DNA of 64,000 bases, taken from positions 6,324,001-6,388,000 of the forward strand of contig NZ_CP107989.1 in the NCBI RefSeq assembly GCF_041435015.1. The letters run 5' to 3'. The notes under the pieces were generated by a model that worked only from the letters and a program-made list of their open reading frames with translations, was not told the DNA's origin and searched no databases. How positions within the stretch are numbered: the stretch's first letter is position 1; the number at the start of each line of letters is the position of its first letter. The position numbers and the translations under genes were made by a program. This document shows, piece after piece, positions 2,396 through 40,975 of the stretch. The DNA comes from Streptomyces canus (GTDB taxonomy: Bacteria > Actinomycetota > Actinomycetes > Streptomycetales > Streptomycetaceae).

Positions 2396-3035
2396 GACGT
2401 CGCTCCAGGGATCGCAGAAGAAGGGAGGCCAGATAGGAGATGACGATGAAGGCCACGCCGATCACGGTCAGCGGCTCGGTGAACTGGAAGTGCTCCTGGG
2501 CGAACAGCCGCGCCTCGCCGAGCATCTCCAGCACCGTGATGACCATCAGCATCGGTGTGTCCTTGAGCATCGAGATCACGTAGTTGCCGAGAGCCGGTAC
2601 GACCCGTCGGATCGCCTGCGGCAGGATCACCACCTGCCAGGTCCGCACCCGCGGCAGGTTCAGCGCCGTCGCCGCCTCCCACTGGCCGGTCGGCACCGCC
2701 TCGATACCGGCCCGGTAGACCTGCATGGTGTACGTCGAGTAGTGCAGCCCGATCCCGATGACACCGGTGGCCAGCGCGGAGAGGGTCACGCCCCACTCGG
2801 GCAGCACATAGAAGAGGAAGAACAGCTGGACCAGCAGCGGGGTGTTGCGCACGAACTCCGTGACCACCCCGACCGGCCAGCGCACGAACCGCGAGGGGGC
2901 GCGCATCAGCAGCGCCCACACCAGGCCGAGCGCGAAGGAGATCAGCGAGCCGAGCGCGAGGGCTTGCAGGGTGACCAGCAGCCCGTCCCAGAACTGCGGC
3001 ATGAAGTCGCTTACGGCACTCCAGTCCCACGTCAT
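2385..3035 (-). CDS. ABC transporter permease, EhuD type
   Basis: 216 residues with about five hydrophobic segments and the HisMQ-type permease signature around EAATALNLPRVRTWQVVILP, the loop that couples to the ATPase. It pairs with the permease encoded just upstream, which it overlaps by 4 nt (ATGA), to form the membrane channel for a small polar solute. Length and layout are normal for the family. The ATPase gene follows and overlaps its end by 11 nt, so the operon is tightly coupled in translation. Confidence 0.88.
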   Translation of the reverse strand: MTWDWSAVSDFMPQFWDGLLVTLQALALGSLISFALGLVWALLMRAPSRFVRWPVGVVTEFVRNTPLLVQLFFLFYVLPEWGVTLSALATGVIGIGLHYSTYTMQVYRAGIEAVPTGQWEAATALNLPRVRTWQVVILPQAIRRVVPALGNYVISMLKDTPMLMVITVLEMLGEARLFAQEHFQFTEPLTVIGVAFIVISYLASLLLRSLERRLVR

Positions 3036-3754
3036 GCGACATGACCTCCTACGCCCGTCGTCCGGGCCCGCTTCAGCTCGGCGTCGGTGTCAAGACCGCG
3101 TTGGGGCTCCGTGCCGACCCCCGCCTTGAGCTTCTTCTCGAGGCCGCGCATCAACCGGGTGAGCAGGAAGGCGATCACGAAGTAGATGAGCAGCAGATAC
3201 GTGTAGATCCCGGCACTCTCCTGGAGCGCGAGCCGCACCAGGTTGCCGCTGAACGCCAGATCGCCCATGCCCATCACGGACACCAGCGCGGTGCCCTTGA
3301 GCAGCTCGATCAGCAGGTTGGAGAACGGCGGGATCATCTCCGGCACCGCCTGCGGCAGCAGGATCAGCCGGAGCCGCTGCCAGGGCGTGAAGCTCAGCGC
3401 GATCCCGCCCTCCTGCTGCGCCGGGTCGACCGCCTTGAGCGCACCGCGCACGATCTCGGAGCCGTACGCCCCGTAGGTCAGTCCGAGTGCGAGCGTGCCC
3501 GCCCACATCGGCACCAGCTGCCAGCCGAAGGCCGGGGGCAGCACGAAGAACACCCAGAAGATCATCACCAGTGCCGAGGTTCCGCGGAACACCTCGGTGT
3601 AGAAGCCCGCGAGGAAGCGGACGATCCACAGGCGGTGGGTGCGCAGGACGCCGACCACGAAGGACACGGCGGCTGCGAGGATCGCGCTGAAGAACAGCAG
3701 CTGGACCGTCGTCCAGATGCCCTTGAGTACCAGTTCCCAGAGTCCGGAGGTCAT
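3032..3754 (-). CDS. ABC transporter permease, EhuC type
   Basis: 240 residues, hydrophobic, with the HisMQ coupling loop near QQEGGIALSFTPWQRLRLI. It forms the heterodimeric inner-membrane channel with the EhuD-type partner. The ATG at 3754 overlaps the stop of the binding-protein gene by 4 nt, and its own stop overlaps the next start by 4 nt. The charged C-terminal tail (LEKKLKAGVGTEPQRGLD) is longer than in many relatives and is probably cytoplasmic. Confidence 0.88.
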   Translation of the reverse strand: MTSGLWELVLKGIWTTVQLLFFSAILAAAVSFVVGVLRTHRLWIVRFLAGFYTEVFRGTSALVMIFWVFFVLPPAFGWQLVPMWAGTLALGLTYGAYGSEIVRGALKAVDPAQQEGGIALSFTPWQRLRLILLPQAVPEMIPPFSNLLIELLKGTALVSVMGMGDLAFSGNLVRLALQESAGIYTYLLLIYFVIAFLLTRLMRGLEKKLKAGVGTEPQRGLDTDAELKRARTTGVGGHVA

Positions 3755-4656
3755 CCGCCGCAGAGCTCCTTCGCGGTCAGGTCCGTCATCTCGGCCTGCG
3801 TGAACCCGAAGGGCTTGAGGACCCGGAACAGCTCCCCGCTCTTCTTCAGCTTCCGCAGCTCGGCGTTGAAGGCGTCCCGCAGGTTCGTCTCGGTCCGGCG
3901 GAACGCGAAGGCGCCCCCGTCGACGTGCGGTTTGCCGCCGACGGTCGGGGTGAAGGCCTTCGTGGCCTCCGCCTTGGCCGATTTCTTCACCACCTCGCGG
4001 GTGGTGAGCGCGGTCCCGGCGAACACGTCGACGCGTCCCGCCTCCACGGCGTTCAGCCCCGCGACCTGGTCCGGAACGATCAGGATGTCGCTTTCCTTGT
4101 ATCCCGCCTCGACGGCGTACCCGATCTCCGCGTAGCCGGTCCCGGTGGCGAACTTCGCCTTCTTCGCGACGACGTCCTTGTAGTTGTGAAGACCTTTGGG
4201 ATTTCCCTTGCGCACGATGAAGGAATCGAGCATCTGGTAGTCGGGATCGGCGAAGATCACCTGTTCGCAGCGTTCCGGTGTGACGTACATCCCGGCCGCC
4301 ACGACATCGAACTGCTGGGAATTCAGCCCGGGAATGAGCGAGCCGAACTCGGTGGGCACGGGCTGCACCTTGTCCACCCCGAGCCGCTTGAATATGACCC
4401 TCGCGAGTTCTGGTGCCTCGCCGGTGAGGTCGCCGTTCTTGTCGATGTATCCGAACGGGATCTCACCCGCGATTCCCAGCCGTACGACACCTGCCGCCCT
4501 GAGCCGGTCGAGCAGTTCACCGCCTCCCGTGGTCGAGGCGGTGGCCACGCGTGAGCAGCCCGCGGCGCCCAAAGCACCGAGCGCCGCTACCCCCGCGAGC
4601 AGCGACCGGCGGGTGGTCCCGGATATGTGTTCGCCATGTTCCAGTGGTGGAGCCAT
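3751..4656 (-). CDS. Solute-binding lipoprotein of an Ehu-type ABC transporter
   Basis: 301 residues from the ATG at 4656; upstream in-frame starts would add a non-homologous leader. The N-terminus has a twin-arginine signal (TTRRSLLAGVAALGALG) ending in the lipobox GAAGC, so the mature protein is probably exported folded by Tat and lipid-anchored outside the membrane. The body is a family 3 periplasmic-binding fold (VRLGIAGEIPFGYIDKNGDL; GVDKVQPVPTEFGSLIPGL). It captures the substrate for the two permeases that follow. It is the first gene of the operon and is divergent from the DUF3830 gene across a 97-nt shared promoter region. Ectoine-type ligands fit the family, but no ectoine degradation genes (EutB-E type) are nearby, so the ligand is open. 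Confidence 0.88.
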   Translation of the reverse strand: MAPPLEHGEHISGTTRRSLLAGVAALGALGAAGCSRVATASTTGGGELLDRLRAAGVVRLGIAGEIPFGYIDKNGDLTGEAPELARVIFKRLGVDKVQPVPTEFGSLIPGLNSQQFDVVAAGMYVTPERCEQVIFADPDYQMLDSFIVRKGNPKGLHNYKDVVAKKAKFATGTGYAEIGYAVEAGYKESDILIVPDQVAGLNAVEAGRVDVFAGTALTTREVVKKSAKAEATKAFTPTVGGKPHVDGGAFAFRRTETNLRDAFNAELRKLKKSGELFRVLKPFGFTQAEMTDLTAKELCGG

Positions 4657-4753
4657 GGCGGCGCGGCTACCCGACCGGATGCGACTTATGCAGATCGATT
4701 TGAGCCCCGTTCCGGATCGAGGCCCTCTTGACCGGCGGGGGACCATGGAATGC

Positions 4754-5248
4754 ATGGCTGACCGCTACATCGAAGTCTCGCTGGTCAAGCGGGGAATCAC
4801 CGCCACGGCAAAGCTCCTGGACGATCGGGCTCCGATCACCTGTGCGGCCGTATGGGATGCCCTCCCGCTCGCCGGTGACGTCTATCACGCGAAGTACGCA
4901 CGCAACGAGATCTACGCACTTTTCCCACCTTTCGCAGAATCGGAACCACCCTTGGAAAATCCGACAGTTACCCCGATTCCCGGAGATCTCTGCTATTTCT
5001 CCTTCGCGGGCACCGAACTCGGCACCAAGTCCTACGGCTACGACCGCGAGGTCCGCGCCGGCACGACCGTCGTCGACCTGGCCCTGTTCTACGAACGCAA
5101 CAACCTGCTCCTGAACGCCGACGTGGGCTGGGTGCCGGGGATCGTCTGGGGCCAGGTGGTGGACGGGCTGGACGCCCTGGCCGAGGGCTGCAACGACCTC
5201 TGGCGCGCGGGCGCCCTCGGCGAGAGCCTCCGGTTCAGCCGGGCGTGA
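4754..5248 (+). CDS. DUF3830 family protein
   Basis: 164 residues starting MADRYIEVSLVKRGITATA. An in-frame ATG 9 nt earlier (4745) is possible because the only purine-rich stretch, GGGGG, lies between the two optimal spacings. The sequence has the small cyclophilin-like beta-barrel look of the DUF3830 family (WDALPLAGDVYHAKYARNEIY; PGDLCYFSF). No catalytic residue is assigned for the family. DUF3830 genes recur beside amidases, hydroxyacid dehydrogenases and Asp/Glu-racemase-like proteins in catabolic clusters, as here, which suggests a role in breaking down the transported compound. The 3' end overlaps the convergent amidase gene by 14 nt. Confidence 0.75.
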   Translation: MADRYIEVSLVKRGITATAKLLDDRAPITCAAVWDALPLAGDVYHAKYARNEIYALFPPFAESEPPLENPTVTPIPGDLCYFSFAGTELGTKSYGYDREVRAGTTVVDLALFYERNNLLLNADVGWVPGIVWGQVVDGLDALAEGCNDLWRAGALGESLRFSRA

Positions 5249-6662
5249 CGCTCCTCGCGCGGGCCGGGTCGGGCGGCCGGATGCCCGCCGTTTCCGCCTC
5301 GTAGAGTGCGTGAGCCGCCCGCAGCACCAGGTCGTCCCGGTGCCGGGCCGCCACGATCTGGAGTCCCACCGGCAGCCCGTCGGCGTCGGTCCCCACCGGG
5401 ACGGACGCGGCGGGCTGCTGGGTCATGTTGAAGGGGTAGGTGAAGGGCGTCCACCCCGTCCAGCGGTGGTGCCCCGAACCCTTCGGGACCTCCGTACCCG
5501 CCTCGAACGCGGTGATCGGAAGGGCCGGGGTGACCAACAGGTCGTAGGAGTCGTGGAAGCGGCCCATCCGGCGCCCCAGCTCCATCCGGACGTCCACCGC
5601 GGCCAGGTAGTCGAGCGCACTCATGCGTGACCCGAGACCGCAGATCGCACGGAGCCCCGGGTCCAGCAACGCCCGCTGGTGCGGCCCGAGATGCTGGGTC
5701 ACCCGGGCCGCCCCGCTGAACCACAGGGTGTGGAAGGCGTCCACCGGGTCGGCGAAGTCGGGATCGGTCTCGGTGACGTACGCGCCGAGTCCGGCCAGGC
5801 GCTCCACGGCCCGCCGTACCGCCGCGGCGACCCCGGGCTGTACGGCCACCTGGCCGCCGAGGGACGGCGAGTACGCGATCCGCAGCCCGCGCACCCCGCC
5901 CGACAGGGCCGCCGTGTACGGGCCGGCCGCCGGGCCCAGCGCCGACCAGTCACGGGAGTCCGGCACCCCGATGACGTCGAGGAGCAGCGCCGCGTCGGCC
6001 GCGTCGCGGGTCATCGGGCCCACGTGGGCGAGGGTGCCGAAGGCGCTCGCCGGGTACAGCGGCACGCGGCCGTACGTCGGCTTGAGGGCGAAGATCCCGC
6101 AGAACGCGGCCGGGATGCGGACGCTGCCCCCGCCGTCCGTGCCGAGCGCGAGCGGTCCCGCGCCGAGCGCCACGGCCGCCGCGGCGCCCCCGCTGGAACC
6201 GCCCGCGGTGCGCGTCGGGTCGTAGGGATTGCGCGTCACGCCCGACAGCGGCGAGTCCGTGACGCCCTTCCAGCCGAACTCGGGGGTCGTGGTCTTGCCG
6301 ACGAAGACCGCGCCCTGCTCGCGCAGCCGGGCGACGGACGGGGCGTCCTCGTCCCAGGTGCCGCTCTCCGGGATCGTCCTGGAGCCCTTCAGCGTCGGGG
6401 CGCCGCGCAGCAGCAGGATGTCCTTCACCGTGACCGGGACGCCGTCCACCGCGCCGGACGGCTCCCCCCGTCGCCAGCGGTCGGCCGAGGCGCGGGCCTG
6501 CGCCAGGGCCTCCTCGCCGGTCAGCCGCACGAACGCGTTCACCTCCGGCTGGATCCGTTCGGCCCGGTCCAGAGCCGCCCGGGTCGCTTCCACGGGGCTG
6601 AACTCGCCCTTGCGGTAGCCCTCCAGGAGTTGTACGGCGGTCAGTTCGGTGAGGTCCTGCAT
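5235..6662 (-). CDS. Amidase, amidase-signature family
   Basis: 475 residues, a full-length amidase-signature hydrolase. The Ser-cisSer-Lys triad is visible: the lysine in GVPVTVKDI (about residue 79), the glycine/serine loop GGSSGG (about 156-161) and the acylated serine in [16 protein letters not shown]. It hydrolyses a C-N amide bond to acid plus ammonia or amine in the cytoplasm. It lies 18 nt downstream of the hydroxyacid dehydrogenase gene on the same strand, so the two are probably one transcript. With the transporter and isomerase-like genes beside it, it may act on an imported amide or a ring-opened intermediate; the substrate is unknown. Confidence 0.88.
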
Positions 6663-6680
6663 GTGCCCCTCCGCTCACGT

Positions 6681-7628
6681 TCAGTGCCCTGGCACGTACC
6701 CGCGTTGCTTGTCGACCACGTTCGGCAGTGATCTGCCCGCTTCCCAGCGGTCGTACAACTGCAAGAACTGCGTGCCGAGTTCATCGCGCCAACCGATCGT
6801 GTCACCGCTCATGTGCGGGGACACGATCAGGCCCGGGACCTGCCACAACGGACTGTCGGGCGGCAGCGGCTCGGTGTCGAACACATCGAGGGCGGCCCCG
6901 GCGATCCACCGCTTGGACACCGCCTCCACCAGCGCGTCCTCGACGACCAGCTGACCCCGGCCGATGTTGATGAACCGCGCGGAGGGCTGCATCATCCCGA
7001 AGCGGCGTGCGTCGAACATGCCGTGTGTGTCCGCGGTGAGCGGGGCGGCCGCGATCACCCAGTCGGCGCGGGCCATCAGACGGTCGAGGTCGTCGGGGCC
7101 GTGGATCCCGGTGCGGGAACGGCGGCCGACGAGGGCGGTGGTGATGCCGAGCGCCTTGAGGGTGCTCACGATCGCCCGGCCGATGGGCCCGGAACCGACC
7201 ACACAGGCACGGGTCCCGGCCACCCGCTGGGACTCCCGGTGCCGCCACACGCCCTCCCGCTGCAGCTCCAGGGTCCGGGGCAGGTCCTTCGCCATCGTCA
7301 GGACCAGGGCGGCGACGTACTCGGCGATCGGCTGGTCGAAGACCCCGCGGGCGTTGGTCACCACCGTGTCGGAGACGGCGAGTTCGGGGCACATCAGATG
7401 GTCCACGCCCGCGCTCGCCGTGTGCACCCAGCGCGGCCGCGGGCCCTCGCCCGGCCACGCGTCACGCACGGCGGTCGAGGTGAAGTCCCAGACGAGCAGC
7501 ACGTCGGCGGACGGCAGCCGCTCGGCGAGCGTGGTCCCGTCCGCGTGCTCGATCCGGGCCCGTCCGGTGAGCTTTCCGAGCCGGGGCAGGGGGTCGGCGT
7601 CAAGGACGAGAAGGGTGGGGACGGACAT
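6681..7628 (-). CDS. D-2-hydroxyacid dehydrogenase (NAD-binding)
   Basis: 315 residues from the ATG at 7628. The Rossmann motif is GSGPIGRAI, the substrate-binding arginine region NIGRGQLV, the acid-base glutamate region DVFDTEPLPPDSPLW, and the active-site histidine lies in SPHMSG. It interconverts a 2-keto acid and a D-2-hydroxy acid with NAD(P)H. Longer in-frame starts exist upstream but add a low-complexity leader without homology. It is the first gene of a two-gene unit with the amidase, transcribed away from the isomerase-like pair across a 198-nt region that holds repeat elements. Confidence 0.85.
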   Translation of the reverse strand: MSVPTLLVLDADPLPRLGKLTGRARIEHADGTTLAERLPSADVLLVWDFTSTAVRDAWPGEGPRPRWVHTASAGVDHLMCPELAVSDTVVTNARGVFDQPIAEYVAALVLTMAKDLPRTLELQREGVWRHRESQRVAGTRACVVGSGPIGRAIVSTLKALGITTALVGRRSRTGIHGPDDLDRLMARADWVIAAAPLTADTHGMFDARRFGMMQPSARFINIGRGQLVVEDALVEAVSKRWIAGAALDVFDTEPLPPDSPLWQVPGLIVSPHMSGDTIGWRDELGTQFLQLYDRWEAGRSLPNVVDKQRGYVPGH

Positions 7629-7672
7629 CGAGGCACCGTTTCTGCGGATTATCGCGGGGGCTGCCAGGCGTC

Positions 7673-7731
7673 TGACATGGGCGGAAACGCCGGCGGTGAC
7701 ACCGGTGTGACGTGAGCGTGACATGGGCGGA
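7673..7731. promoter_or_regulatory. Divergent control region with 13-bp direct repeats and a palindrome
   Basis: TGACATGGGCGGA occurs twice in the same orientation, at 7673-7685 and 7719-7731. Between them ACACCGGTGT (7699-7708) is a perfect 10-bp palindrome. The cluster sits between the divergently transcribed dehydrogenase and isomerase-like genes, so it is a good candidate for the binding region of the nearby IclR-type regulator. This is inference from position only. Confidence 0.4.
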
Positions 7732-7826
7732 TTGACCACGCTCGCACCCGAACCTACCTTCGTCAACACGGGCGTTGTGCACGTACCGCTGTCCCCCCGT
7801 CTCTCACCGTGAGGCCGGTCTCTGCC

Positions 7827-8651
7827 ATGGACGTTTCCTTTCTAGGTGGTCCGCGCCCCCAGCGCGGTGTCGGTGTCGTCGCCCCCTTCGACTTCGCGCT
7901 GGATCGCGAGCTGTGGCGGTGGGTCCCCGACGAGATCTCGCTCCATCTGACCCGTACCCCGTATGTCCCCGTCGAGGTCAGCCTCGACCTGGCCCGTCTG
8001 GTCAGCGAGCACGAGACCCTGCACGAGGCGGTGCGCACGCTCAACGCCATCGCCCCCGAGGTCGTCGCCTACGCCTGCACCTCCGGCAGCTTCGTCGGCG
8101 GGATCGCCGGGGAACGCGCCATGTGCGCGGCCATGACCAGGGCGGGCGCGGTCCCGTCCCTGACCACGTCCGGCGCCCTCCTGGACGCCCTCGCCGAACT
8201 CGACGTCCGCCGGGTGGCGCTGGTGACGCCGTACACGGTGTCGGTGACCAGGTCGCTGGAGGAGTACGTCGCCGAGGCGGGCGTCTCGGTCACCGGGTGC
8301 GCCTACATGGGCCTGACCCGGCACATCTGGAAGGTGCCCTACCGCCAGGTCTCCGAGATGGCCCACAAGGCCGTACGGGGCGACGCCCAGGCCCTGTTCA
8401 TCAGCTGCACCAACCTGCCCACGTACGACGTCATCCCGCAACTGGAAGCGGAACTGCGCATACCGGTGATCTCGGCCAACCAGGTGACGATGTGGGCCGC
8501 GCTGCGCCGACTGGGTACCCGAGCCGTGGGACCGTACCAGGCGCTGATCGATCCGGCGGCGCGGTACGGCCCCGTGCGCCCGGAGATTCCGGGACTGCCG
8601 GAAGTCCGGGGCCTGCCGGACGAAGAGCAGCAGCAGGAAGGCTGGACATGA
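7827..8651 (+). CDS. Asp/Glu racemase superfamily protein, EutA / maleate isomerase-like (both cysteines kept)
   Basis: 274 residues from the ATG at 7827; a GTG at 7809 is possible. The fold has two half-domains, each expected to supply one catalytic cysteine. The first is in VAYACTSGSF (about residue 78) and the second in ALFISCTNLPTYD (about residue 200). With both cysteines, cis-trans isomerisation or racemisation of a dicarboxylate or amino acid by two-base or thiol chemistry is plausible. The gene overlaps the next, related gene by 4 nt (ATGA), so the two are made together and could form a heteromer. Ectoine-utilisation EutA proteins belong to this family; the true substrate is unknown. 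Confidence 0.8.
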   Translation: MDVSFLGGPRPQRGVGVVAPFDFALDRELWRWVPDEISLHLTRTPYVPVEVSLDLARLVSEHETLHEAVRTLNAIAPEVVAYACTSGSFVGGIAGERAMCAAMTRAGAVPSLTTSGALLDALAELDVRRVALVTPYTVSVTRSLEEYVAEAGVSVTGCAYMGLTRHIWKVPYRQVSEMAHKAVRGDAQALFISCTNLPTYDVIPQLEAELRIPVISANQVTMWAALRRLGTRAVGPYQALIDPAARYGPVRPEIPGLPEVRGLPDEEQQQEGWT

Positions 8652-9379
8652 CCGCTCTCGGATTCCTCTACCCGGGCCACTCCGCCGAGGACGACTATCC
8701 ACGCATCGAACAGCTCCTGGGCAGCGACATCCGCCTGGACGTCGTCCACACCGACATCGGCACCGACGCGCACCGCGTGGACGCCCTCCTCGAGATGGGC
8801 TCGGCCGAACGGCTCGCCGCCGGTGTCGAGGAACTGCGCATGTCGGGCGCCGAGTCCGTCGTCTGGGCCTGCACCAGCGGCAGTTTCGTCTACGGCTGGG
8901 AGGGCGCCCACGAGCAGGTGCGCACCCTCGCCCGCACGGCCGGCATGGCCGCGTCCTCGACGTCGTTCGCCTTCGTGCACGCGGCCCAGGAGATCGGGGC
9001 CGGGCGGGTGGCGGTCGCGGCCACCTACCCGGACGACGTGGCGGGCCTGTTCGCGGAGTTCCTGCGGGCGGGCGGAGTCGAGGTCCTCCAGGTCCGCGGC
9101 GCCGGGATCATCACCGCCGCGGAGGTCGGCACCTGGGGCGAGGAGGAGGTCTTCGCGCTGGCCCGGGAGGCCGACTCGCCGGACGCCGAGGCGGTGCTCC
9201 TCCCGGACACCGCCCTCCATACGGCCACCCACATCCCGGCCCTGGAGAAGGAGCTCGGCAAGCCGGTCCTCACCGCGAACCAGGTCACGGTCTGGGAGGC
9301 ACTGCGGCTGACGGACCGCCGGGTGAACGCTTCGGCCCTGGGGGCGCTGTTCACCAGGGAGCCGATCGTCCAGGTGTGA
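8648..9379 (+). CDS. Asp/Glu racemase superfamily protein, EutA-like, lacking the second cysteine
   Basis: 243 residues, related to the upstream gene product and translationally coupled to it. The first cysteine motif is kept (VVWACTSGSF, about residue 75). Where the partner has SCTNLPTYD, this protein reads PDTALHTATH, so the second catalytic cysteine is replaced. A single-cysteine member may use different chemistry (compare arylmalonate decarboxylase, which keeps the other cysteine) or be a non-equivalent subunit. It ends 20 nt before the convergent membrane-protein gene. Confidence 0.78.
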   Translation: MTALGFLYPGHSAEDDYPRIEQLLGSDIRLDVVHTDIGTDAHRVDALLEMGSAERLAAGVEELRMSGAESVVWACTSGSFVYGWEGAHEQVRTLARTAGMAASSTSFAFVHAAQEIGAGRVAVAATYPDDVAGLFAEFLRAGGVEVLQVRGAGIITAAEVGTWGEEEVFALAREADSPDAEAVLLPDTALHTATHIPALEKELGKPVLTANQVTVWEALRLTDRRVNASALGALFTREPIVQV

Positions 9380-9398
9380 GGCGCGCCTGTTCAGGGGC

Positions 9399-9932
9399 TC
9401 ACCGCCGACGGTCGTGGGCGGCCTCGGCGGTGAGTTCCGTGTGCATGGCGAGAAGTCGCCGGTGTTGACGGTTTCCGTACAGGACGAGCCAGCCCAGGAA
9501 GACCCCGGCGAACAGGACCGTGCCGAGGGTCTGCGGCAGGCTCGCCGTCAGGGCCGTCAGCACCACGACCGCGCAGAACAGGACGGCGAGGACGACCTGG
9601 GCCGCGACCCGGTGGCGGGTGCGGTGCAGACGCTGTTCGACCAGGTCGCGCATGGCCTGCCGCTCCTGCGGCTCCGTGGGCACCTCGCCCCGCCGCAGCT
9701 TCCGGTCCAGCGACACGAGGCCGTCCACGGAGCCTCCGGCGGCCCGCTTCTCCCGGCGCCGCACGGTGAGCATCACGCCGACCCCGCCGACCGAGGCGAA
9801 CGCCACGTACAGCAGGGCCGAGGCGATCGAGCGTTCCGGGGACAGCAGCAGGACCACGACGCACGCGACCAGGAGGGACAGGACGACCTGGACCCACAGA
9901 TGCTTGCCGAGAAAGGAATTGACGCGTTCCAC
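9399..9932 (-). CDS. Membrane protein of unknown function, four predicted segments
   Basis: 177 residues from a GTG. Hydrophobic stretches lie at about residues 12-30 (LWVQVVLSLLVACVVVLLL), 37-56, 109-127 and 134-152. A basic cytoplasmic loop (RRREKRAAGG... LRRGEVPTEPQERQAM) lies between the second and third. No enzymatic motif is visible. It follows a second small membrane-protein gene by 12 nt and is likely cotranscribed with it. The pair is conserved-looking but not recognised as any characterised family. Confidence 0.7.
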   Translation of the reverse strand: MERVNSFLGKHLWVQVVLSLLVACVVVLLLSPERSIASALLYVAFASVGGVGVMLTVRRREKRAAGGSVDGLVSLDRKLRRGEVPTEPQERQAMRDLVEQRLHRTRHRVAAQVVLAVLFCAVVVLTALTASLPQTLGTVLFAGVFLGWLVLYGNRQHRRLLAMHTELTAEAAHDRRR

Positions 9933-9944
9933 GGCCTGCCCCCG

Positions 9945-10205
9945 TCACATCCGGTCGCGGCGGCGGACCGCGCGCAACCGCATCGTCAGGCCGACGGCCA
10001 GCAGCACCAGGGCCACCGCGCAGTAGGCCCACGAGCCGGTGCCGCGCACGGTGTCGACGGCGGCCAGGACCACCCACAGGGCGGCGACGACACTCAGCGC
10101 GGTCCACGCGATGTCGGCGATACGGATGGACAACTGGGCGCGCTGTCTGGTGCCGGGTTCGAGCGGTCCGAGTTCCGACGGCCGGGACGGGTTCTCTCGC
10201 GTCAT
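9945..10205 (-). CDS. Small membrane protein, two predicted segments
   Basis: 86 residues from the ATG at 10205, preceded by GGAGGG at good spacing. A polar N-terminal third is followed by two membrane helices (DIAWTALSVVAALWVVLAAV and WAYCAVALVLLAVGLTM) and a basic tail RLRAVRRRDRM, so both ends are probably cytoplasmic. It is the first gene of a two-gene membrane-protein unit, divergent from the flavin oxidoreductase gene. Function unknown. Confidence 0.7.
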   Translation of the reverse strand: MTRENPSRPSELGPLEPGTRQRAQLSIRIADIAWTALSVVAALWVVLAAVDTVRGTGSWAYCAVALVLLAVGLTMRLRAVRRRDRM

Positions 10206-10396
10206 GGCGATCCCTCCGGATTGTGGATTTGTGCGCTTTGAGTACCCGGGGGCGGGTGCGGCAAGCGGTCGACGCAGGTCGGGATGCGGAAGCAGGCGCT
10301 CCAGGAATCCTCGATCCCGCCCGGGAATAAACGGGGACACTCTCCTGTTAATCCGTGACTGACAGCGCACGGCTCTTGAGCAGGAGGCACCCCACC

Positions 10397-11484
<1,088 letters not shown>

Positions 11485-11488
<4 letters not shown>

Positions 11489-13299
11489 GCCTTCACGCCC
11501 ATCAGCCCGGAGATACGATCCGGCGACACCGGCCGCGAGTACAGCCAGCCCTGGCCGGTGTCGCAGCCGATCCGGCGCAGCCGGGTGGCCTGGGCCGAGG
11601 TCTCGACGCACTCCGCGGTGACGGTGAGGCCGAGGCGGTGGGCGAGCTGGATCATCGCCTCGACGACGACCTCGTCGGCCGGATTCGGGGGGACGCCCTC
11701 GCCCTCGTACTGGAAGCCGCGCACGAAGGAGCCGTCCAGTTTCAGGACGGAGACCGGCAGGCGGCTGAGGTAGGCGAGGTTCGAGTAGCCCGTGCCGAAG
11801 TCGTCGATCGCGATGCCGACGCCCATGTCGCTCAGCGCCTGGAGGGCCTGGAGCGGGCGGCCCGCCGAACCCATCACCGCCGACTCGGTGAGTTCGAGCT
11901 GGAGGAGATGGGGCGCCAGGCCGGTCTCCGCGAGGGTCTTCGCCACGTCCGCGACCAGGTCGGAGTCCCAGACCTGACGGACCGCCACATTGACGCTGAC
12001 GAAGATCGGCGGCTCGTCGGGGTGGTCGAGCTGCCACCGACGGGCCTGGCGGCAGGCGGTGTCGAGGATCCAGCGGCCGAGCGGGACGATCGAGCCGTCC
12101 TCCTCGGCCAGTGCGATGAACCGATTCGGCGTCAGCATCCCGAACTGCGGGTGGTTCCAGCGCACCAGCGCCTCGACCCCGCGCAGCCGGCCGTCCTCCA
12201 TGCCCACCAGCGGCTGGTACTCCAGCTGGAACTCGCCGCGCTCGATGGCCGGGCGGAGCGTGGAGGCGAGGGCCTGGCGGGTCATGCGGTGAGCGTTGCG
12301 CTCGGGGTCGAAGAGCGTCCAGCGGTCCCGGCCGTCCGCCTTGGCCCAGTACAGCGTGGTGTCGGCGGCCTGCATCAGACCCGTCGCCGAGGTGCCCTCC
12401 GCCTGCCGCTCGACGACCCCGATCGACGCCGACACCGACATCCGGTTGCCGGAGACGTCGAAGGGCGCCTGGACGGCCTTCAGCAGGGACTCGGCGAGGT
12501 CGGCGAGCTGTTCGGTGCCCGTGGAGTCCTCGACGAGCAGCGCGAACTCGTCGCCGCCCAGCCTCGCCACCAGGGGAGCGGTCGCCCGACCCTGGCCGGC
12601 CTCGTCCGCGCAGCGCGTGAGCCGCTCGGCGACGGCGGCCAGCAGCCGGTCGCCGACCCGGTGGCCGAGGGTGTCGTTGACGGCCTGGAACCCGTCGAGG
12701 TCCAGGTAGCACAGCCCGATCCGGCCCGTGCCGCCCTGCTCGTACGACTCCGGCTCCAGCGCGGCCGTCAGCCGCTCGAAGAACAGCGTGCGGTTGGGCA
12801 GCCGCGTCACCGGGTCGTGCATCTGCAAGTGCCGCAGCCGGGCCTGGAGTTCACGACGGGCCGTGATGTCGGCGACGGACAGCAGGACACCGGGGGAGCC
12901 CTGGGGGCCTTCGGCCAGCGGGGTGATCGTGATCTGCGCCCACATCGAGTGCCCGTCGGGATGCTTGAGCCGCCGCTTGCAGCGCAGCTTCGCCTGCCGG
13001 CCGCGCAGCACCTCGCGGTAGGAGTGCCAGGTGCGGGCGTCCGAGGCCAGATCCACCAGGTCGGCGGCCTGGGCCCCGGCCAGCTCCTCCGCTGCGGCGC
13101 CGAGCAGCTCGCCGAAGGCGGGGTTGGCGTCGACGACCGTGCCCTCGCGGTCCACCACGGCCATGGCCAGCGGCGCCGCCGCGAATGCGGCACGGTGCGT
13201 CGGGGGCTCCGTACGAGCAGGTGTCGTAATGTCACTCTCTGTTACGGCCGACCCGTCAGGATCTGCCGCGGGCGCCGGCCCTTCGGACGTTCCGTTCAC
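11485..13299 (-). CDS. cdgA: PAS-GGDEF-EAL c-di-GMP enzyme, CdgA
   Basis: 604 residues from the GTG at 13299, with GGGAG 7 nt upstream. Order: PAS domain (about 38-150), diguanylate cyclase domain with intact GGDEF at 248-252, then an EAL phosphodiesterase domain with EAL at 376-378, LTESAV, and the loop-6 motif DDFGTGYSNL. No RxxD inhibitory site precedes GGDEF. No transmembrane segment is seen, so it is cytoplasmic. It can in principle both make and hydrolyse c-di-GMP, the ligand that activates BldD in Streptomyces. Domain order and location relative to adpA, ceb and des match S. coelicolor CdgA (SCO2817, a known BldD target) from memory. A candidate BldD box lies upstream. Confidence 0.85.
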
Positions 13300-13469
13300 C
13301 GCTAGCTCCCGCAGTGCACTCGATCGCTGTCCGCGCAGGAAAGTGTGCCGATCATAGAGGCTGCCCCCGGGCCCTTCCAGCCATTGCCCGGTCTGGAGGA
13401 CCGGCAACCCCTTCTGGCAGATCGTTTCTGCCCGCAGCTGGACGGGTTCTTGGGGCCTGGGACCGGTTG

Positions 13470-13482
13470 TGACGTTCCGTGA
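13470..13482. promoter_or_regulatory. Candidate BldD box upstream of cdgA
   Basis: TGACGTTCCGTGA matches the outer half-sites of the BldD consensus TNACNCWGNGTNA (7 of 9 fixed positions), 171 nt upstream of the cdgA start. BldD control of cdgA is established in S. coelicolor; that this exact site is used is inference. Confidence 0.4.
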
Positions 13483-13557
13483 GCGATTCGGGGGTGTCGG
13501 CCGGTCCGGCAGGTCACGCCATCTCACTCGTCCGGTGCAGATAAACAGGGCGTACTG

Positions 13558-14868
13558 GTGCAAAACCACACAGGCTGGGTGCGGTATCCCGTGAAACCGC
13601 TCCCGGAGGTCCCGTTGCCGCGCCCGTTTCCGCGCACACTCCCGCGCCCCCGACTGCGCAGCACCGCCGCCGTGTTCACCACCATGGCGGCCCTCGCCTC
13701 CACCTCTCTCGTCACCGGCCCCTCGGTCGCCGAACCCTTCTCGTCGGAGCCCTGCACCCTGGAGCGCACCGAGGCCCACCACTCGGAGGGCCTCGACACC
13801 TGGAACACCGCCTATCCGCGCCCGGCCCGCGCCCTCGACGCGGTCATGGTCTTCCTGTCCTTCCCGGACGCCCGGCCGATGACCACCCCCGCCCAGCTGG
13901 CCGCCGACCACTTCCCGGCCACCACCCGCTTCTTCCAGCACGCCTCCTACGGCCGCTTCACCCTGCGCCCGCACCCGCTGCGGCACTGGATCCGGATGCC
14001 GCGCCCGTCGACGGCCTATGCCATACACCGCGACTGGAGCGCCGCGGACCGGGGGGCCTATCTGCACGACGCGCTCGCCGCGGCCGACGGGCAGGTCGAC
14101 TTCTCGCGCTACGACGTCGTCTACTTCGTCGCCGACCCGGACGCGCCCGGCGTCGACTCGGACGCCACGAAGGTCGTCAACCTGGACGTACCGCTGCGGG
14201 CCGACGGCACGGACATCCGCCGGGTGGTCACCGTCTTCGAGAAGCACCCGCCGGACCGGCTGGTGCTGGCCCATGAGACGGGGCACGTGTTCGACCTGCC
14301 GGACCTCTACCACCGGCCGATGGACGGCAAGGGCGACTGGGACACCTATGTCGGCGACTGGGACCTGATGGGCAGCCAGTTCGGACTCGCCCCCGATCTG
14401 TTCGCCTGGCACAAGTGGAAGCTGGGCTGGCTGGAGCGGCGGCAGGTGGTGTGCGTACGGGGACCGAAACCGACCCGGCTGACGCTGGAGCCGCTGGGGA
14501 CCGGTCCCGGCAACGCCGGCATCTTCGGGCCCGGGCGCGGCACCAAGCTCGCGGTCGTGCGCACCGGGGCCGACAGTGCGCTCGCCTTCGAGGCCCGTGC
14601 GGCGATGGGCGACGACGAGGCGGTCTGTCAGCAGGGTGTGCTGATCTATCGCATCCACAGCGGCGCCGCGTCCGGCGGCGGCCCGATCCAGGTGATCGAC
14701 GCCCACCCCCGCACCGAGGCCTGCTGGGAGAACTCCGTCTACCCACCCCTCGCGGACGCCCCCGTCGACATCGGCGAGACCTTCACGGTCCCGGGCGAGC
14801 ACGTACGCGTAGCGGTGACCGGACGAACGGCCACCGGGGCGTGGAACGTGGAGATCGCGCTCGGGTGA
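13558..14868 (+). CDS. Secreted M6-type metalloprotease
   Basis: 436 residues. The N-terminus is basic then hydrophobic (RSTAAVFTTMAALASTSLVTG), consistent with a Sec signal, though the start is uncertain (GTG at 13558, 13579 or 13591, none with a clear ribosome-binding site). The zinc site is clear: HETGHVFDLPDLYH, the HExxH plus third histidine of metzincin-like M6 (immune inhibitor A type) proteases, followed by GDWDLMGS. Cysteines in the mature part suggest disulphides. It is probably an extracellular peptidase. It is divergent from cdgA, with which it shares a 258-nt upstream region. Confidence 0.8.
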   Translation: MQNHTGWVRYPVKPLPEVPLPRPFPRTLPRPRLRSTAAVFTTMAALASTSLVTGPSVAEPFSSEPCTLERTEAHHSEGLDTWNTAYPRPARALDAVMVFLSFPDARPMTTPAQLAADHFPATTRFFQHASYGRFTLRPHPLRHWIRMPRPSTAYAIHRDWSAADRGAYLHDALAAADGQVDFSRYDVVYFVADPDAPGVDSDATKVVNLDVPLRADGTDIRRVVTVFEKHPPDRLVLAHETGHVFDLPDLYHRPMDGKGDWDTYVGDWDLMGSQFGLAPDLFAWHKWKLGWLERRQVVCVRGPKPTRLTLEPLGTGPGNAGIFGPGRGTKLAVVRTGADSALAFEARAAMGDDEAVCQQGVLIYRIHSGAASGGGPIQVIDAHPRTEACWENSVYPPLADAPVDIGETFTVPGEHVRVAVTGRTATGAWNVEIALG

Positions 14869-36452: not shown

Positions 36453-36462
36453 CCGAACGGCA

Positions 36463-39400
36463 TCAGGATGCGAGCGGGTTCTCCCGGAGCCACCTGCGGA
36501 TCCGGTCCGCCTCTTCCTCGCGTCCGAGTCTGCGGAGCAGGATTTCCTGGAGGCCCAGCACGGTGTGCAGGCACATCAGCACCACGGGATTTCCGGAGAC
36601 CCTTACGCGATAGAACTCCACGATCTCGCCCGTGGTCCTGAGCGCGTCCCCGAGCTCGTCGACGTCCAGCGTCATCAGCTCGGCCCGCAGGCGCCGTGAG
36701 CGGGTGGGGTCATAGGCGAAGGCTGTGGGGTCGGCGGCCGCGAGGCGGTGCCCGACCTCCGCCGCCTCCCACTCACAGGCGAAGGCCACCCCCTCTCGTT
36801 CTGCCTGTGACAGATCCAGAGCGAGGTTTGACAGCGCGCGCGCCAGGTCGGGTTCGTAGGTGGCGGGGTATTCGGAGGCCAGTCGGCGCCAGATCGCCAC
36901 CGCTTCCTCGGTGGCCGTCCGGCCCTCACCTGCGCCGAAGACTTCGGCCCGTTGAGTGCCGAGGTTGGTCAGCGTCGCGGCGAGGTCGGGCTCGAAGGCG
37001 CGGTTGTCGGCCGCCAGCGGCCGCCACACCGCCACCGACTGTTCGGTGAGGTCCAGAGCCTTCTCTGCGCGCCCCACGTTGACCAGATGACCTCCGACCG
37101 CGGACAGGGATCGCGCCACCTCGTGCCGGAAGACGACGGGGTTGTCCGTGGCGAGCCGGCACCAGATCACCAGCGCCTCCTCGGCCCGGCGCAGGGCCTC
37201 TTCGGCGAGTCCCACCCCCGACAGCCGAACGCCGAGTCGGTGGAGGCCACTGGCCAGGCCGGGACCGTAGGCGGTGAAGTCGTGGCGTGCGAGCCTGCGC
37301 AGGATGTCGACCGCCTCCTCCTCGACGGCCAGAGCCTCCTGCACACGGCCCACCTGGGCCAGCTGTTCGTCCAGGTTGGACAGGGAGCGTGCCAGGTCGG
37401 GCTCGTGGGCGGCCGGGTTCTCGGCCACGAGCCGGCGTCTGATCTCCACCGCCTCCTCCTCGGCGGCCAGCGCCTCGCGCCAACGCCCCAGGTTCTTCAG
37501 GTCCACCCCGAGGTTGGACAGCGAGCCGGCGAACTGGGATTCGAAGGCGTCGGGATCGTGGGCCGCGAGCGGACGCAGGAGCCGTACGGACTCCTCGGTG
37601 GCAGCCAGGGCCTCGTCCAGGCGCATGGTGTCCGAGAACCTGATGCCGAGATTGGAGAGTGCGCCGGCCAGGTCGGATGTGAAGGCGGTCGGGTCGGCGG
37701 CGGCGAGCCTGCGCCAGATCCGCACTCCCTCCTGCGCGAGAGCGAGTCCCTCGGCGAGGCGTCCCGTCTCCGTCAGCCTGATGCCGAGGTGGGACAGTGA
37801 ACGGGCGAGATCCGGTTCGTGGAGAGGGGAGGCCTGGGCCAGCCGGCGCCAGACTGCCGACGCCTCGGCGGTCGCTGCCAGTGCCTCCTTCCTGCGCCCC
37901 AGTTCGCTCAGCTGAGAGCCGTAGTTGGAGAGCGAGACCGCGAGCCGGTGTTCCTCGCCGTCCGTCCCGTCCGCCACGTGCCGCCGCCGGATCGCTATCG
38001 CCTCTTCGATGACGGCGAGGGCTTCGGCTCTGTGCCCCGCGTGACCCAACTGGGTGCCGAGGTTGTCGAGCGATGTGGCCAGCACGGGTTCGTGAACGGC
38101 CGGGTACTCGTCCGCCAGCACCCGGTCGGCCTTGGCCAGACCCCGGCGGAGCCGCAGAGCGAGCGGGGCGATGACCCGAGACGACAGAGGCAGCGCGGTG
38201 ACCGCGCCGTAGGCGGCCTCGTAGGTGAGGTGTGCGCTGTCCAGAGCCGAGTCCAGAGCGCTGAGAACCTGCCGACTCTCCTCGGCGCGGCCGGAGTTGT
38301 AGTGGGCGATGGCCGCGCGGGTCAGGACGACGATGATCTGGGCCTGTTGAGCGGGTGCGGACTTCTCGAACAGGGCCGGGAGCGGGACGTACCCACGCAG
38401 GAGGGCGGACGAGGCCTGGTACTCGGCGATGCGGTCGGGCTGGAGGGAACCCCAGTACCGGCTGGGTTCGGGCGGGTAGAGACCGGCCAGCCAGGCCACG
38501 GTGTCCATGATCTTGCAATCGGGCACGTCGCGAAGCACGCCGATCACCTTGGCCGCCTCGTCCTCGTCGGCCGCCCCGCACAACACGACCACCGCGACGA
38601 CGGCCTCCAGGGCCCGGGTGGACAGGCGCAGTTCGAAGGCGGGCGTCTCGGCGCTGTCCTTCCAGAACCGCTTCTCGTGGAGCAGGAGGACAGCCTCCGG
38701 CGGGGTGCCGGGGGGTACGTCGGCAGGGCGGGGCCCGAGCTGAAGCAGGGCGACCAAGGCGGTCGTCTGAAGGGTGAGGGCGTTGTCGTAGCGGGGATGG
38801 GCCAGGTCGTCGGGTGGCTGGAGCTCCCCGGCCAGTCCTGCCCAGTCGTGCTCGGGCAGGGTCGGGATGCGGGGCAGGAGGCGAGCGAGGTCGTGAGCCG
38901 CGCGGAGGAACGCGCTGTGCCGTTCCGCGACGGGGCGGCTGCGGGGGATGAGCGCGGTGAGCTCGATGCCCGGGGTGTGGATGAGTTCCTGTCGCACGTC
39001 CGGCTCCTCGCTGAGCGAGTCGCTGCGCCAGGGCCCGTCGGACCGGGCCACCACGAGCAGCCGTACGCGGTGACGGGAGGGGTGCAGGTCGCTGATGAGG
39101 CGGCGCACCAGGTGGGGACGGGTCTCCGCGTAGTCCACGACGATCAGCAGGGGCAGCGCCGTGGCCAGAGCGGTGAAGTCCGGTACGCCGCGATCGGTGA
39201 GGTCGGAGCGCAGGTGCCCGGTCACCCAGCCTCGACGCCGGAGGAGTTCGGTCAGACGGCGGGCGAGGCGGCTCTTGCCCTGTCCGCCCGGCCCGGTCAG
39301 GACCTCCACCGACATCGCGGACGGACCGTCCTGGCACCAGGTGAGCAGCCGGGAGAGTTCACGGTCGCGGCCGTGGAAGGCGACGGCCTCGGCATCGGCG

Positions 39401-40179
39401 CGCAGCAGAGAGGCCGGTGACTTCAGATGGCGTGTGGACGCGGCCGGGGTGAACAGGGTTGCTGCTTCGGCCGGTTCGAGGAGTGGCTCCCAGCCGGTGT
39501 GCTCGGTGGCCACCAGGCGGAAGTCGTCGTCGGCGAGGAGGCGGTCGCTGGGGGTGGCGGTGAGGCGGGTACCGCCCTCGGCCCGGCGGTCGCGGCCGAC
39601 GACACCGCACAGCAAGTGCCCGCTCCCGCCGCCGTCGTAGAGTACGGCGGCCCCCGAAATGCCGGACCAGCGGCTGCCGTTCGCCAGTGCGGCCCGGTCG
39701 ACGGGGAGGAGGGGGTCGGTACTGGAGACCTCATAGTGTCCGGCCAGGGACCCCTTGCCCGGCGTGATGGAGCCGTTGAGCTGCTCGTCCAGGCGCCTGC
39801 CGTCCGGGTCCCTCTGCATGCGCGGAAAGCCGGCCAGGATGACAGAACAGGGACGGGCGCCGATCACGAGGCCGAATCTCTGCGGTGGCCGGACCGACGG
39901 GTCGCTCAGCGATTCCGGTGGCTGCCAGCCGTTGCCTTCGGCGATCTCGACCAGAGCCGCGTCGATGGTCTCGTCCAGGAGGTGCCAGCGCACCGTCGCG
40001 GGATACTTCGGCCCGTCGGCCAGAGCCAGCGACACAGTGGCCGCGCCGCGGTCGCCTTCCCCGAGCACATGGGCCGCCGTGAGCGCCAGCCTGGGCGCGA
40101 TCAGGTAGCCCGAGCCGAAGCTCCGTGGGTCCGGTCCCGGAACCCCCACGAAGATCCGCACCAGTCGGTCGTTCGCCAC
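36463..40179 (-). CDS. Trypsin-like protease - STAND NTPase - TPR protein (conflict system)
   Basis: 1238 residues from a GTG with GGGGAGG upstream. The N-terminal trypsin-like domain has a full triad: H37 (TAAHVLG), D73 (TIDAALVEI), S175 (SGISGAAV). A STAND-type P-loop domain follows: Walker A GPGGQGKS (296-303) and Walker B LLIVVDYAE with D349. From about 690 to 1140 there are roughly ten TPR-like repeats (EPDLARSLSNL..., LGRREEAL-like) of about 45 residues. No signal or membrane segment. Such proteins act as NTP-dependent sensors: the repeats recognise a trigger, the NTPase oligomerises, and the protease is switched on. The small Trypco2-type gene just upstream is its usual partner. A role in phage defence or regulated cell death is inferred. 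Confidence 0.85.
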   Translation of the reverse strand: MANDRLVRIFVGVPGPDPRSFGSGYLIAPRLALTAAHVLGEGDRGAATVSLALADGPKYPATVRWHLLDETIDAALVEIAEGNGWQPPESLSDPSVRPPQRFGLVIGARPCSVILAGFPRMQRDPDGRRLDEQLNGSITPGKGSLAGHYEVSSTDPLLPVDRAALANGSRWSGISGAAVLYDGGGSGHLLCGVVGRDRRAEGGTRLTATPSDRLLADDDFRLVATEHTGWEPLLEPAEAATLFTPAASTRHLKSPASLLRADAEAVAFHGRDRELSRLLTWCQDGPSAMSVEVLTGPGGQGKSRLARRLTELLRRRGWVTGHLRSDLTDRGVPDFTALATALPLLIVVDYAETRPHLVRRLISDLHPSRHRVRLLVVARSDGPWRSDSLSEEPDVRQELIHTPGIELTALIPRSRPVAERHSAFLRAAHDLARLLPRIPTLPEHDWAGLAGELQPPDDLAHPRYDNALTLQTTALVALLQLGPRPADVPPGTPPEAVLLLHEKRFWKDSAETPAFELRLSTRALEAVVAVVVLCGAADEDEAAKVIGVLRDVPDCKIMDTVAWLAGLYPPEPSRYWGSLQPDRIAEYQASSALLRGYVPLPALFEKSAPAQQAQIIVVLTRAAIAHYNSGRAEESRQVLSALDSALDSAHLTYEAAYGAVTALPLSSRVIAPLALRLRRGLAKADRVLADEYPAVHEPVLATSLDNLGTQLGHAGHRAEALAVIEEAIAIRRRHVADGTDGEEHRLAVSLSNYGSQLSELGRRKEALAATAEASAVWRRLAQASPLHEPDLARSLSHLGIRLTETGRLAEGLALAQEGVRIWRRLAAADPTAFTSDLAGALSNLGIRFSDTMRLDEALAATEESVRLLRPLAAHDPDAFESQFAGSLSNLGVDLKNLGRWREALAAEEEAVEIRRRLVAENPAAHEPDLARSLSNLDEQLAQVGRVQEALAVEEEAVDILRRLARHDFTAYGPGLASGLHRLGVRLSGVGLAEEALRRAEEALVIWCRLATDNPVVFRHEVARSLSAVGGHLVNVGRAEKALDLTEQSVAVWRPLAADNRAFEPDLAATLTNLGTQRAEVFGAGEGRTATEEAVAIWRRLASEYPATYEPDLARALSNLALDLSQAEREGVAFACEWEAAEVGHRLAAADPTAFAYDPTRSRRLRAELMTLDVDELGDALRTTGEIVEFYRVRVSGNPVVLMCLHTVLGLQEILLRRLGREEEADRIRRWLRENPLAS

Positions 40180-40200
40180 GACACCTCCCCCCGGGGACGG

Positions 40201-40530
40201 TCACTCTGTGTCGAGCACGTCGATGTCGCCACTCCCGGGCTGGTGCGGTTGCAGCTTCACCGTCACCGTGTGGGTAGCCCTTCTGCCGCTCTCCTTCCTG
40301 CCACCCAGGCTGACCACGCTCCAGCGCAGCCCACCGTCGATCCCCTGGACGCCGGTCAGCTCCAGGCCGAGTTCCAGAGTGATCTCCCCCAGCGTGAACA
40401 GCACCCCCCGGTCGCCGGGACCCGAGGGACTGGATGCGCGGCTCTGGGCCTCGGCGATCTGGTCTCTCAGCATCGCGATCGCGTCCGCCAGGTCGAGCCA
40501 CCCCGGCTCCGCGCCATGGCTGTCCGTCAT
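40201..40530 (-). CDS. Trypco2-type small protein (trypsin co-occurring domain)
   Basis: 109 residues from the ATG at 40530, preceded by GGGGGG. The N-terminal amphipathic helix (LDLADAIAMLRDQIAEAQSRA) is followed by a beta-rich domain (VLFTLGEITLELGLELTGVQ; LRWSVVSLGG; THTVTVKLQPH). This matches the Trypco2 family, known from comparative genomics as a small protein encoded beside trypsin-like effector proteins. It ends 21 nt before the protease-STAND gene, so the two form one operon. It may bind or restrain the protease until a trigger is sensed (inference). Confidence 0.78.
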   Translation of the reverse strand: MTDSHGAEPGWLDLADAIAMLRDQIAEAQSRASSPSGPGDRGVLFTLGEITLELGLELTGVQGIDGGLRWSVVSLGGRKESGRRATHTVTVKLQPHQPGSGDIDVLDTE

Positions 40531-40714
40531 CGGCCCCCCGGTCGTCGACTGTCGCCTCCTATTTCTCCCGCCGCGCACGGAAGAAACCAGTCCAAATGTG
40601 TGCCTTCGCTACGTCCGCCCCGAGCTGCTGAGAAGAGGGCGCCGGCACTGCCCCGGCTCGCGGCGCGCGCCGATGCGGGGGACTTCGACGAGCTGCTCGC
40701 CAAGGAGACCTACC

Positions 40715-40897
40715 GACGTGCAGCGGGAGCTCAAGGAGGAGGGGCGGCACCGCTCCGCCGGAGCCGTGGATCTTCTCGTCGCCGCGACGGCCGAACTCCA
40801 GGGCCTGATCATGCTTCACCACGACAACGGGTTCGAGACCATCGCCGCGGTCACCGGCCGGCCGACCCAGCGGCTGGCCGCGCCGGGCAGTCTCCGA
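40715..40897 (+). pseudogene. Remnant of a PIN-domain (VapC-type) toxin gene
   Basis: DVQRELKEEGRHRSAGAVD then LLVAATAELQG, LIMLHHDNGFETIAAVTG and RPTQRLAAPGSL match the C-terminal half of Streptomyces VapC-like ribonucleases, including the acidic residues of VDLL and HHDNGF. The N-terminal half and the antitoxin gene are missing, there is no start, and no stop follows the homology for a long distance, so it is a dead fragment. A stretch in another frame just upstream (40611-40713) may also be coding debris. The rest of the 445-nt gap shows nothing else. Confidence 0.7.
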
Positions 40898-40975
40898 GCC
40901 CGGTGGGGCGCGGCGGGGCGCGGCACCCCCCTCGGCTGCCGCGCCCCGTTCCCCCGACCCCCGTCTCCGTGGTGG

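Follow-up and report, generated by a model that had tools for sequence, protein, structure and literature searches.

We analyzed a 64,000-nucleotide stretch of Streptomyces canus DNA (NZ_CP107989.1, positions 6,324,001 to 6,388,000; hereafter the window), in which a gene for a small protein of the Trypco2 family is followed by a gene for a large protein joining a trypsin-like protease, a STAND NTPase and a TPR array. A preliminary description, made from the sequence alone, had read this pair as a sensor-NTPase-effector system in an accessory defense slot between sugar-utilization operons. The features of the locus are as follows, in window coordinates:

40201..40530, minus strand: Trypco2 gene, 109 aa, ATG start at 40530, protein ending in ...DIDVLDTE
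36463..40179, minus strand: trypsin-STAND-TPR gene, 1238 aa, GTG start at 40179
40180..40200, minus strand: intergenic gap of 21 nt, the Trypco2 gene and the large gene sharing one frame
39640..40116, minus strand: trypsin-like protease domain, residues 22–180 (Pfam stretch), with triad H37, D73 and S175
38260..39417, minus strand: STAND NTPase core, residues 255–640 (limits chosen by us for a profile), with K302 in Walker A and D349 in Walker B
36718..37953, minus strand: nine TPR repeats of ~46 residues each, residues 743–1154, by hidden Markov model (HMM)
40606..40894, plus strand: vapB-vapC remnant (ends of both genes), on the GH1 side of the slot
36453..40900, no strand: variable slot, from the GH42 stop to a conserved edge at about 40901–40914, past the end of GH1

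The open reading frame coordinates bear out the earlier layout of a 109-residue Trypco2 protein followed after 21 nt by a 1238-residue protein, and the small protein was matched by the Trypco2 profile (PF19631) with 66.9 bits against a cut-off of 24.2. Pfam searches of the large protein identified Trypsin_2 (33.4 bits, cut-off 27.6) and TPR_10 (71.5 bits, cut-off 27.5), the TPR array being kinesin-light-chain-like. Matches to nSTAND_NTPase5 (30.6 bits, E 3.5e-7, cut-off 34) and AAA_16 (26.3 bits, cut-off 32.6) lay under their cut-offs, so the STAND assignment rests on the E value of 3.5e-7 and on the Walker motifs. About ten TPR-like repeats had been noticed before; the HMM delimits nine, and a tenth, starting at residue 697, was delimited by eye. 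Residues 1–760 were matched by 631 proteins at E ≤ 1e-3 among 8000 candidates scored, which rules out a chance origin of the reading frame.

Conservation was examined in an alignment of 121 rows, comprising the best 120 matches and the window protein, which therefore counts twice (P0001 and P0123). The residues previously assigned to catalysis and nucleotide binding (H37, D73, S175, K302 and D349) were all found at the expected numbers of the 1238-aa protein and proved conserved in the aligned relatives. The catalytic triad was intact in 118 of the 118 rows having all three columns, the other three rows being short at the N-terminus and without one or two of them, and K302 and D349 were identical in 121/121. 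The protease residues are thus kept, unlike those of the trypsins fused to vWA proteins, which are mostly inactive (PMC7159879; statements on published work, here and below, refer to the parts of the cited papers available to us). In the structure model the protease is predicted to adopt a chymotrypsin-type fold, closest to Deg/HtrA and V8 proteases; no STAND structure was among the 50 matches listed, which mostly cover model residues 108–352 (the protease), so that the STAND part was barely compared.

Homologs of the protein core (residues 1–670) were found at E ≤ 1e-40 in 28 of 199 Streptomyces genomes, the own genome included, two of which (G006 and G058) match residues 253–626 only. At the DNA level, relatives of the pair were present in 10 of 392 genomes, again counting its own, the best other being 72% identical. 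Trypco2 was detected in at least 127 of the 199 Streptomyces genomes and as a single copy in the own genome. The location between carbohydrate operons was confirmed by a Pfam scan, which revealed genes for a binding protein, a permease, a melibiase-like (GH36-type) protein and GH42 on one side of the slot and GH1 with two permeases on the other. Of 40 GH1-anchored sites compared, 10 also showed a left-hand operon gene within the stretch examined, giving 11 sites with the window. The Trypco2 + trypsin-STAND-TPR pair was present in one of these 11 sites having genes of both flanking operons; the comparison across Streptomyces that the preliminary description had proposed thus shows that the two genes are not core genes at this position.

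The distance between the flanking matches, 4.5 kb in the window, was 0.86, 1.25 and 1.29 kb in G141, G140 and G189 (GH1 identity 97%, 97% and 94%), which are the nearest by GH1 among the matches listed and gave no Trypco2 or trypsin-STAND match in the slot; elsewhere it was 0.06–0.19 kb (L117, L123, L125 and L128), 0.88 kb (L094), 4.7 kb (genome G009, locus L093) and 9.5 kb (L100). The left operon was without GH42 or more in L093, L094, L123, L125 and L128. In G140 and G189 (L113 and L114) the slot held a single Cys-rich gene of 367–379 aa with a hydrophobic C-terminal stretch, for which the L113 protein (G140) gave no Pfam match at E ≤ 0.01, and in L094 it held a PIN-like protein (21.1 bits, under the cut-off of 23.6). 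The slot of G009 contained a different pair in opposite orientation, consisting of Trypco2 and a 1388-aa trypsin-NACHT protein that matches PADLOC STAND_TPR (1.2e-112), its trypsin part also being matched by Avs1b and LmuA. A 1951-aa open reading frame with no Pfam match at E ≤ 0.01 was seen in the L100 slot (5105–10960). In G022 (L092), Trypco2, a trypsin piece and an intact vapBC adjoin GH1, and the window has the ends of a similar vapBC, which account for the toxin debris noticed earlier: the end of vapB (40606–40719) runs straight into that of vapC (40706–40894), the two being 68% and 83% identical to the intact genes in L092 (13558–14183). Trypco2 therefore recurs less than 6 kb from GH1 at two further sites (G009 and G022) against about 0.13 expected (P ~0.008), a rough, post hoc estimate from about 200 hand-counted Trypco2 matches among those listed, compared by eye; the G009 and G022 proteins resemble each other and may thus represent one event.

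Flanking DNA was compared for seven of the nine remaining DNA-level relatives, one of them (L244) lying on a contig of just 5.5 kb. After masking of the pair, no flank of these seven matched those of the window at E ≤ 1e-5. Among the seven themselves, short stretches just downstream were common to L238 and L240 (486 and 200 bases) and to L238 and L239 (121 bases), the gene in the shared stretch of L238 being a resolvase. Neighbors of the pair above the Pfam cut-off included a resolvase, an integrase core and a Tn3 transposase in L238, a serine recombinase in L240, and ISL3 and DDE transposases in L241; in L239 a transposase-type helix-turn-helix lay under the Pfam cut-off, which leaves three clear mobile-element neighborhoods (L238, L240 and L241) of seven. 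For one relative pair (P0095 and P0224) the given name indicates a plasmid location. We also observed that the pair of L238 (1533–9393) lies between the resolvase gene and the Tn3 transposase gene, as transposon cargo might. The L240 pair (1–14136) is flanked by type III Cmr/RAMP CRISPR genes on one side and by the gene of a large serine recombinase on the other, and 200 bases of the L238 resolvase stretch recur downstream of it. The pair is accessory. What lies between the two operons differs among genomes, and some of the closest relatives adjoin mobile-element genes, both in agreement with the accessory slot first suggested.

A STAND-body profile scan of the named genomes yielded 58 loci. 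A Trypco2 gene was nearby in 37 of the 42 relatives with trypsin on the STAND body, the remaining five being L182 (near a contig end), L187, L193, L218 and L219, but in none of the 14 evaluable trypsin-less relatives (16 in all, with L185, at an N gap, and L212, at a contig end, set aside as unjudgeable; Fisher P 7e-10, computed with 15 trypsin-less loci). Eight trypsin-less proteins were scanned, of which five (L211, L213, L215, L220 and L224) carried an N-terminal TIR_2 domain and three gave no N-terminal Pfam match. Replacement of trypsin by TIR on homologous STAND-TPR bodies marks the N-terminal place as the effector place, in support of the sensor-NTPase-effector design proposed at the outset. 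Distances between Trypco2 proteins correlated with those between their trypsins (r 0.733, 63 pairs), the largest value in 2000 permutations being 0.143. Judged from these sequence comparisons, Trypco2 goes with the trypsin.

The same association was seen in 40 Streptomyces Trypco2 loci hand-picked among the matches listed, 20 mostly for long open frames and 20 as top-ranking, hence not a random sample. A trypsin gene adjoined Trypco2 in 34 of them (29 by HMM, 5 by Pfam), an EAD2-VMAP gene adjoined it in L167, and no trypsin gene was recognized in the other five (L132, L133, L134, L140 and L159). Scanning of 28 such trypsin proteins, with the neighbor in L139 left out as cut by its contig, identified NACHT in 15, nSTAND_NTPase5 in 11, TPR_12 in 8 and EAD2 in 2 (E ≤ 0.01). 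Among the stretches examined, L203, L206 and L210 showed one Trypco2 gene per three trypsin-STAND genes, and L192 showed two Trypco2-trypsin-STAND pairs in tandem.

The C-terminus of Trypco2 was conspicuously conserved, with an exact D-x-E ending in 104 of 121 proteins of the close subfamily vs 2 of 120 distant ones. Sorted by the body encoded next to it, the ending was present with the closest STAND bodies in 12/14, middle STAND in 3/5, distant STAND in 1/24, NACHT in 0/12 and unassigned bodies in 1/8, which suggests that the D-x-E tail accompanies the close STAND subfamily, a pattern that could in part reflect common ancestry alone. NACHT-type Trypco2 proteins (e.g. L162, L164, L166 and L171) showed another C-terminal pattern by eye, approximately V-G-N ... 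G-F-G, perhaps a tail matched to NACHT bodies. A 2024 PNAS paper (PMC10907252) describes Trypco2 as an adapter domain in conflict systems whose effectors are trypsin-like, and we propose that its tail may contact the receptor body while its core would belong to the protease. The 109-aa protein gave no solved-structure match below E 0.1, and no enzyme-like motif was discerned in it. A match of the Trypco2 profile to Lsr2 was set aside as weak (E 0.13). Two structure models were likewise discarded: in the model of Trypco2 on the protease the predicted local distance difference test score (pLDDT) of the Trypco2 block was ~32–61, and Trypco2 modelled alone (119 sequences) had a mean pLDDT of 58, from which no fold or interface is claimed.

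To describe the TPR arrays, 966 repeats of ~46 residues were extracted from 119 of 120 proteins, with 1 to 15 repeats per protein and some proteins truncated. Repeats were more alike within proteins (identity 0.659, reaching up to 0.88) than between them (0.570; 106 proteins with at least four repeats). The most variable repeat columns were 13 and 6, that is, TPR positions 9 and 2 in what we take to be the motif numbering; positions 2, 5, 9, 12 and 13 are presumed to face the groove and thus the ligand. At this presumed ligand face the ratio of nonsynonymous to synonymous differences (pN/pS) was 1.84 (bootstrap 1.20–3.31) vs 0.49 (0.42–0.58) elsewhere, and pN was higher at the ligand-face set in 14 of 14 genes. 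The comparison covers the genes in which three or more repeat pairs reach ≥70% identity, 14 out of 53; L179 supplies two of them (two frames at one locus), and some are more distant trypsin-STAND-TPR relatives, e.g. L047, L060, L155, L191 and L214. Repeat-identity thresholds of 65% and 80% gave 1.63 (1.18–2.46) and 1.98 (1.07–4.41) for the same positions. Ligand-face TPR positions, as assigned from the assumed numbering rather than from a model, therefore appear to be under diversifying selection in relatives of the window protein. We found no report of homogenized, diversifying TPRs in bacterial STAND-TPR proteins among the titles and abstract beginnings searched, most subscription papers lying outside the search.

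Collectively, these observations make it probable that the pair is an accessory and probably mobile NLR-like conflict receptor, most likely anti-phage, with a protease as its effector. The support comes from the invariant active-site residues, the exchange of effectors, the way in which Trypco2 follows the trypsin, the accessory distribution and the diversifying selection on presumed ligand-face positions in relatives. In the proposed mechanism, the TPR array would bind an invader-derived or host-state ligand, upon which the STAND NTPase would exchange its nucleotide and assemble, presumably into an oligomer; the clustering would activate the N-terminal HtrA-like protease, which would then cleave a target so that the infected cell is stopped or killed. 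Trypco2 would act as a dedicated partner of the protease, most likely sitting on it and restraining or positioning it, with its C-terminal tail touching the rest of the receptor.

Several results weigh against this interpretation. Low model confidence in both attempts means that no binding surface can be given for Trypco2, and neither protein of the pair had a significant match to a PADLOC defense model. At the 75% threshold the ligand-face pN/pS was 1.55 with an interval that includes 1 (0.87–3.48), for position 9 alone the intervals include 1 at all four thresholds, and the high variability of columns 6 and 13 had been noticed, in overlapping proteins, before the pN/pS test was made. In the window protein itself the repeats have an identity of 0.43, too diverged for its gene to be among the 14, and the evidence of recent diversification accordingly concerns relatives only. 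Streptomyces STAND-TPR proteins can, moreover, be regulators, an example being AfsR (PMC10936776).

That last point leads to a reading in which the pair is an AfsR-like STAND-TPR regulator of development or secondary metabolism, acting by proteolysis and not in defense. AfsR of Streptomyces contains a NOD and a TPR domain (PMC10936776), and the pair is located between sugar-use operons; its patchy presence (28/199 genomes, 10/392 at the DNA level), the mobile-element neighbors of some relatives, the exchange for TIR effectors, the diversifying ligand-face positions in relatives and the absence of the window flanks from the seven relatives compared all make a regulator quite improbable. A somewhat better chance, though still a low one, is given to the possibility that Trypco2 is the substrate, the activated trypsin cleaving it into a toxic or signaling fragment. 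The gene order is that of pro-nuclease/trypsin-fusion pairs, in which the MBL-fold pro-nuclease of Avs1 and Hachiman provides a precedent (PMC12799240), and since the flanking DNA of the window is not common to the seven relatives, a dedicated substrate, if any, should lie within the pair. Against this reading, Trypco2 has 109 aa, no structure match below E 0.1 and no enzyme-like motif that we could see; its strikingly fixed feature in the close subfamily is the C-terminus, and one Trypco2 gene per three trypsin-STAND genes (L203, L206 and L210) would also fit a regulator. Streptomyces are mycelial, and their mycelial growth would suit a receptor for self/non-self or kin discrimination, comparable to the fungal heterokaryon-incompatibility NLRs, instead of one directed against phages. 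Homogenized repeats with a variable ligand face are indeed the pattern of fungal NLRs, some of them incompatibility NLRs (PMC4986451), but neither a cognate self antigen nor mycelial fusion was evidenced in this analysis, and the trypsin fusions with comparable gene order that have been characterized act against viruses (PMC12799240); we rank this reading the least probable of the three. A defense role is the likely prediction for the pair.

A broader proposal, which we put forward tentatively and expect to be wrong more often than right, is that Trypco2 and trypsin form a portable effector cassette serving varied NLR-like bodies (nSTAND5-TPR, NACHT and the published VMAP). Trypco2 would then be a two-sided adaptor whose core travels with the protease and whose C-terminal tail suits the particular body (D-x-E with close nSTAND5-TPR, other endings with NACHT), and the nSTAND5-TPR sensor array, homogenized and fast-evolving in some lineages, would be a bacterial counterpart of the diversifying NLR repertoires of fungi. 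The homogenized, diversifying TPRs of relatives, the co-inheritance of Trypco2 with trypsin, the fixed D-x-E and the second Trypco2 system found in the slot elsewhere all go beyond the preliminary description. If these readings are right, filamentous actinobacteria have intracellular protease-firing receptors whose evolution parallels that of fungal NLRs, with repeats copied and reshuffled and ligand-facing residues changed. Trypco2, which received its name in 2020 and the description of an adapter domain in 2024, would then gain a testable job as a protease partner with a body-matched tail. Homogenized relatives point to the residues expected to set specificity, so that receptor-ligand pairs would become searchable.

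Among known systems, the pairing of Trypco2 with trypsin was named in the VMAP ternary conflict systems (Kaur et al. 2020, PMC7159879), in which, as here, a Trypco2 gene adjoins a trypsin-like peptidase in a predicted invader response of multicellular bacteria; the Trypco genes described there accompany VMAP trypsins, whereas the window trypsin is fused to STAND-TPR (PMC7159879), and no VMAP, MoxR or vWA match was obtained at E ≤ 0.1 in the pair or in the eight flanking proteins scanned. Loci of diversity-generating retroelements with Trypco1/Trypco2 also have Trypco2 as an adapter, and their putative sensors are hypermutated; there, however, retroelements vary C-type-lectin domains, whereas here TPR repeats vary in relatives (PMC10907252). 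The two-gene form of Trypco2 with trypsin-STAND-TPR was not found described in the available parts of PMC7159879 and PMC10907252.

Closer in gene order are Avs1, Hachiman HamMAB and Lamassu, in which a separate gene likewise precedes a defense protein with an N-terminally fused trypsin, but that gene encodes an MBL-fold pro-nuclease in place of Trypco2 (PMC12799240). In the window, the position of an Avs1-type pro-nuclease is taken by Trypco2, and the vapBC remnant and then GH1 lie upstream of the Trypco2 gene. The likeness to STAND/Avs immunity proteins suggested earlier is one of design only; PADLOC Avs1b matched the 1238-aa protein over residues 21–83 only, with a non-significant E of 0.02. 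In Hachiman, the fused trypsin requires HamA-driven oligomerization to be proteolytic, and the authors propose the same model for Avs1 and Lamassu (PMC12799240); by analogy with these systems, a protease triggered by assembly is the best-supported mode of action for the pair. In the CARD-NLR system LypABC, a trypsin-like peptidase, an NLR-like ATPase and TPR-like repeats also cooperate, but as separate CARD-trypsin-ATPase and ATPase-TPR proteins with LypC, in contrast to the single protein with Trypco2 found here (PMC13236601), and Pfam gave no CARD match in the 1238-aa protein. The actinobacterial TIR-nSTAND_NTPase5-TPR proteins described above (L211, L213, L215, L220 and L224) share a homologous STAND-TPR body, but bear TIR instead of trypsin and have no Trypco2 in the stretches examined. 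Fungal NLRs resemble the relatives of the window protein in their TPR_10 (PF13374) repeats, with high internal conservation, variation in repeat number and selection at sites of the concave face (Dyrka et al. 2014, PMC4986451), and differ from them in their fungal hosts, their NB-ARC or NACHT bodies and their other effectors (PMC4986451).

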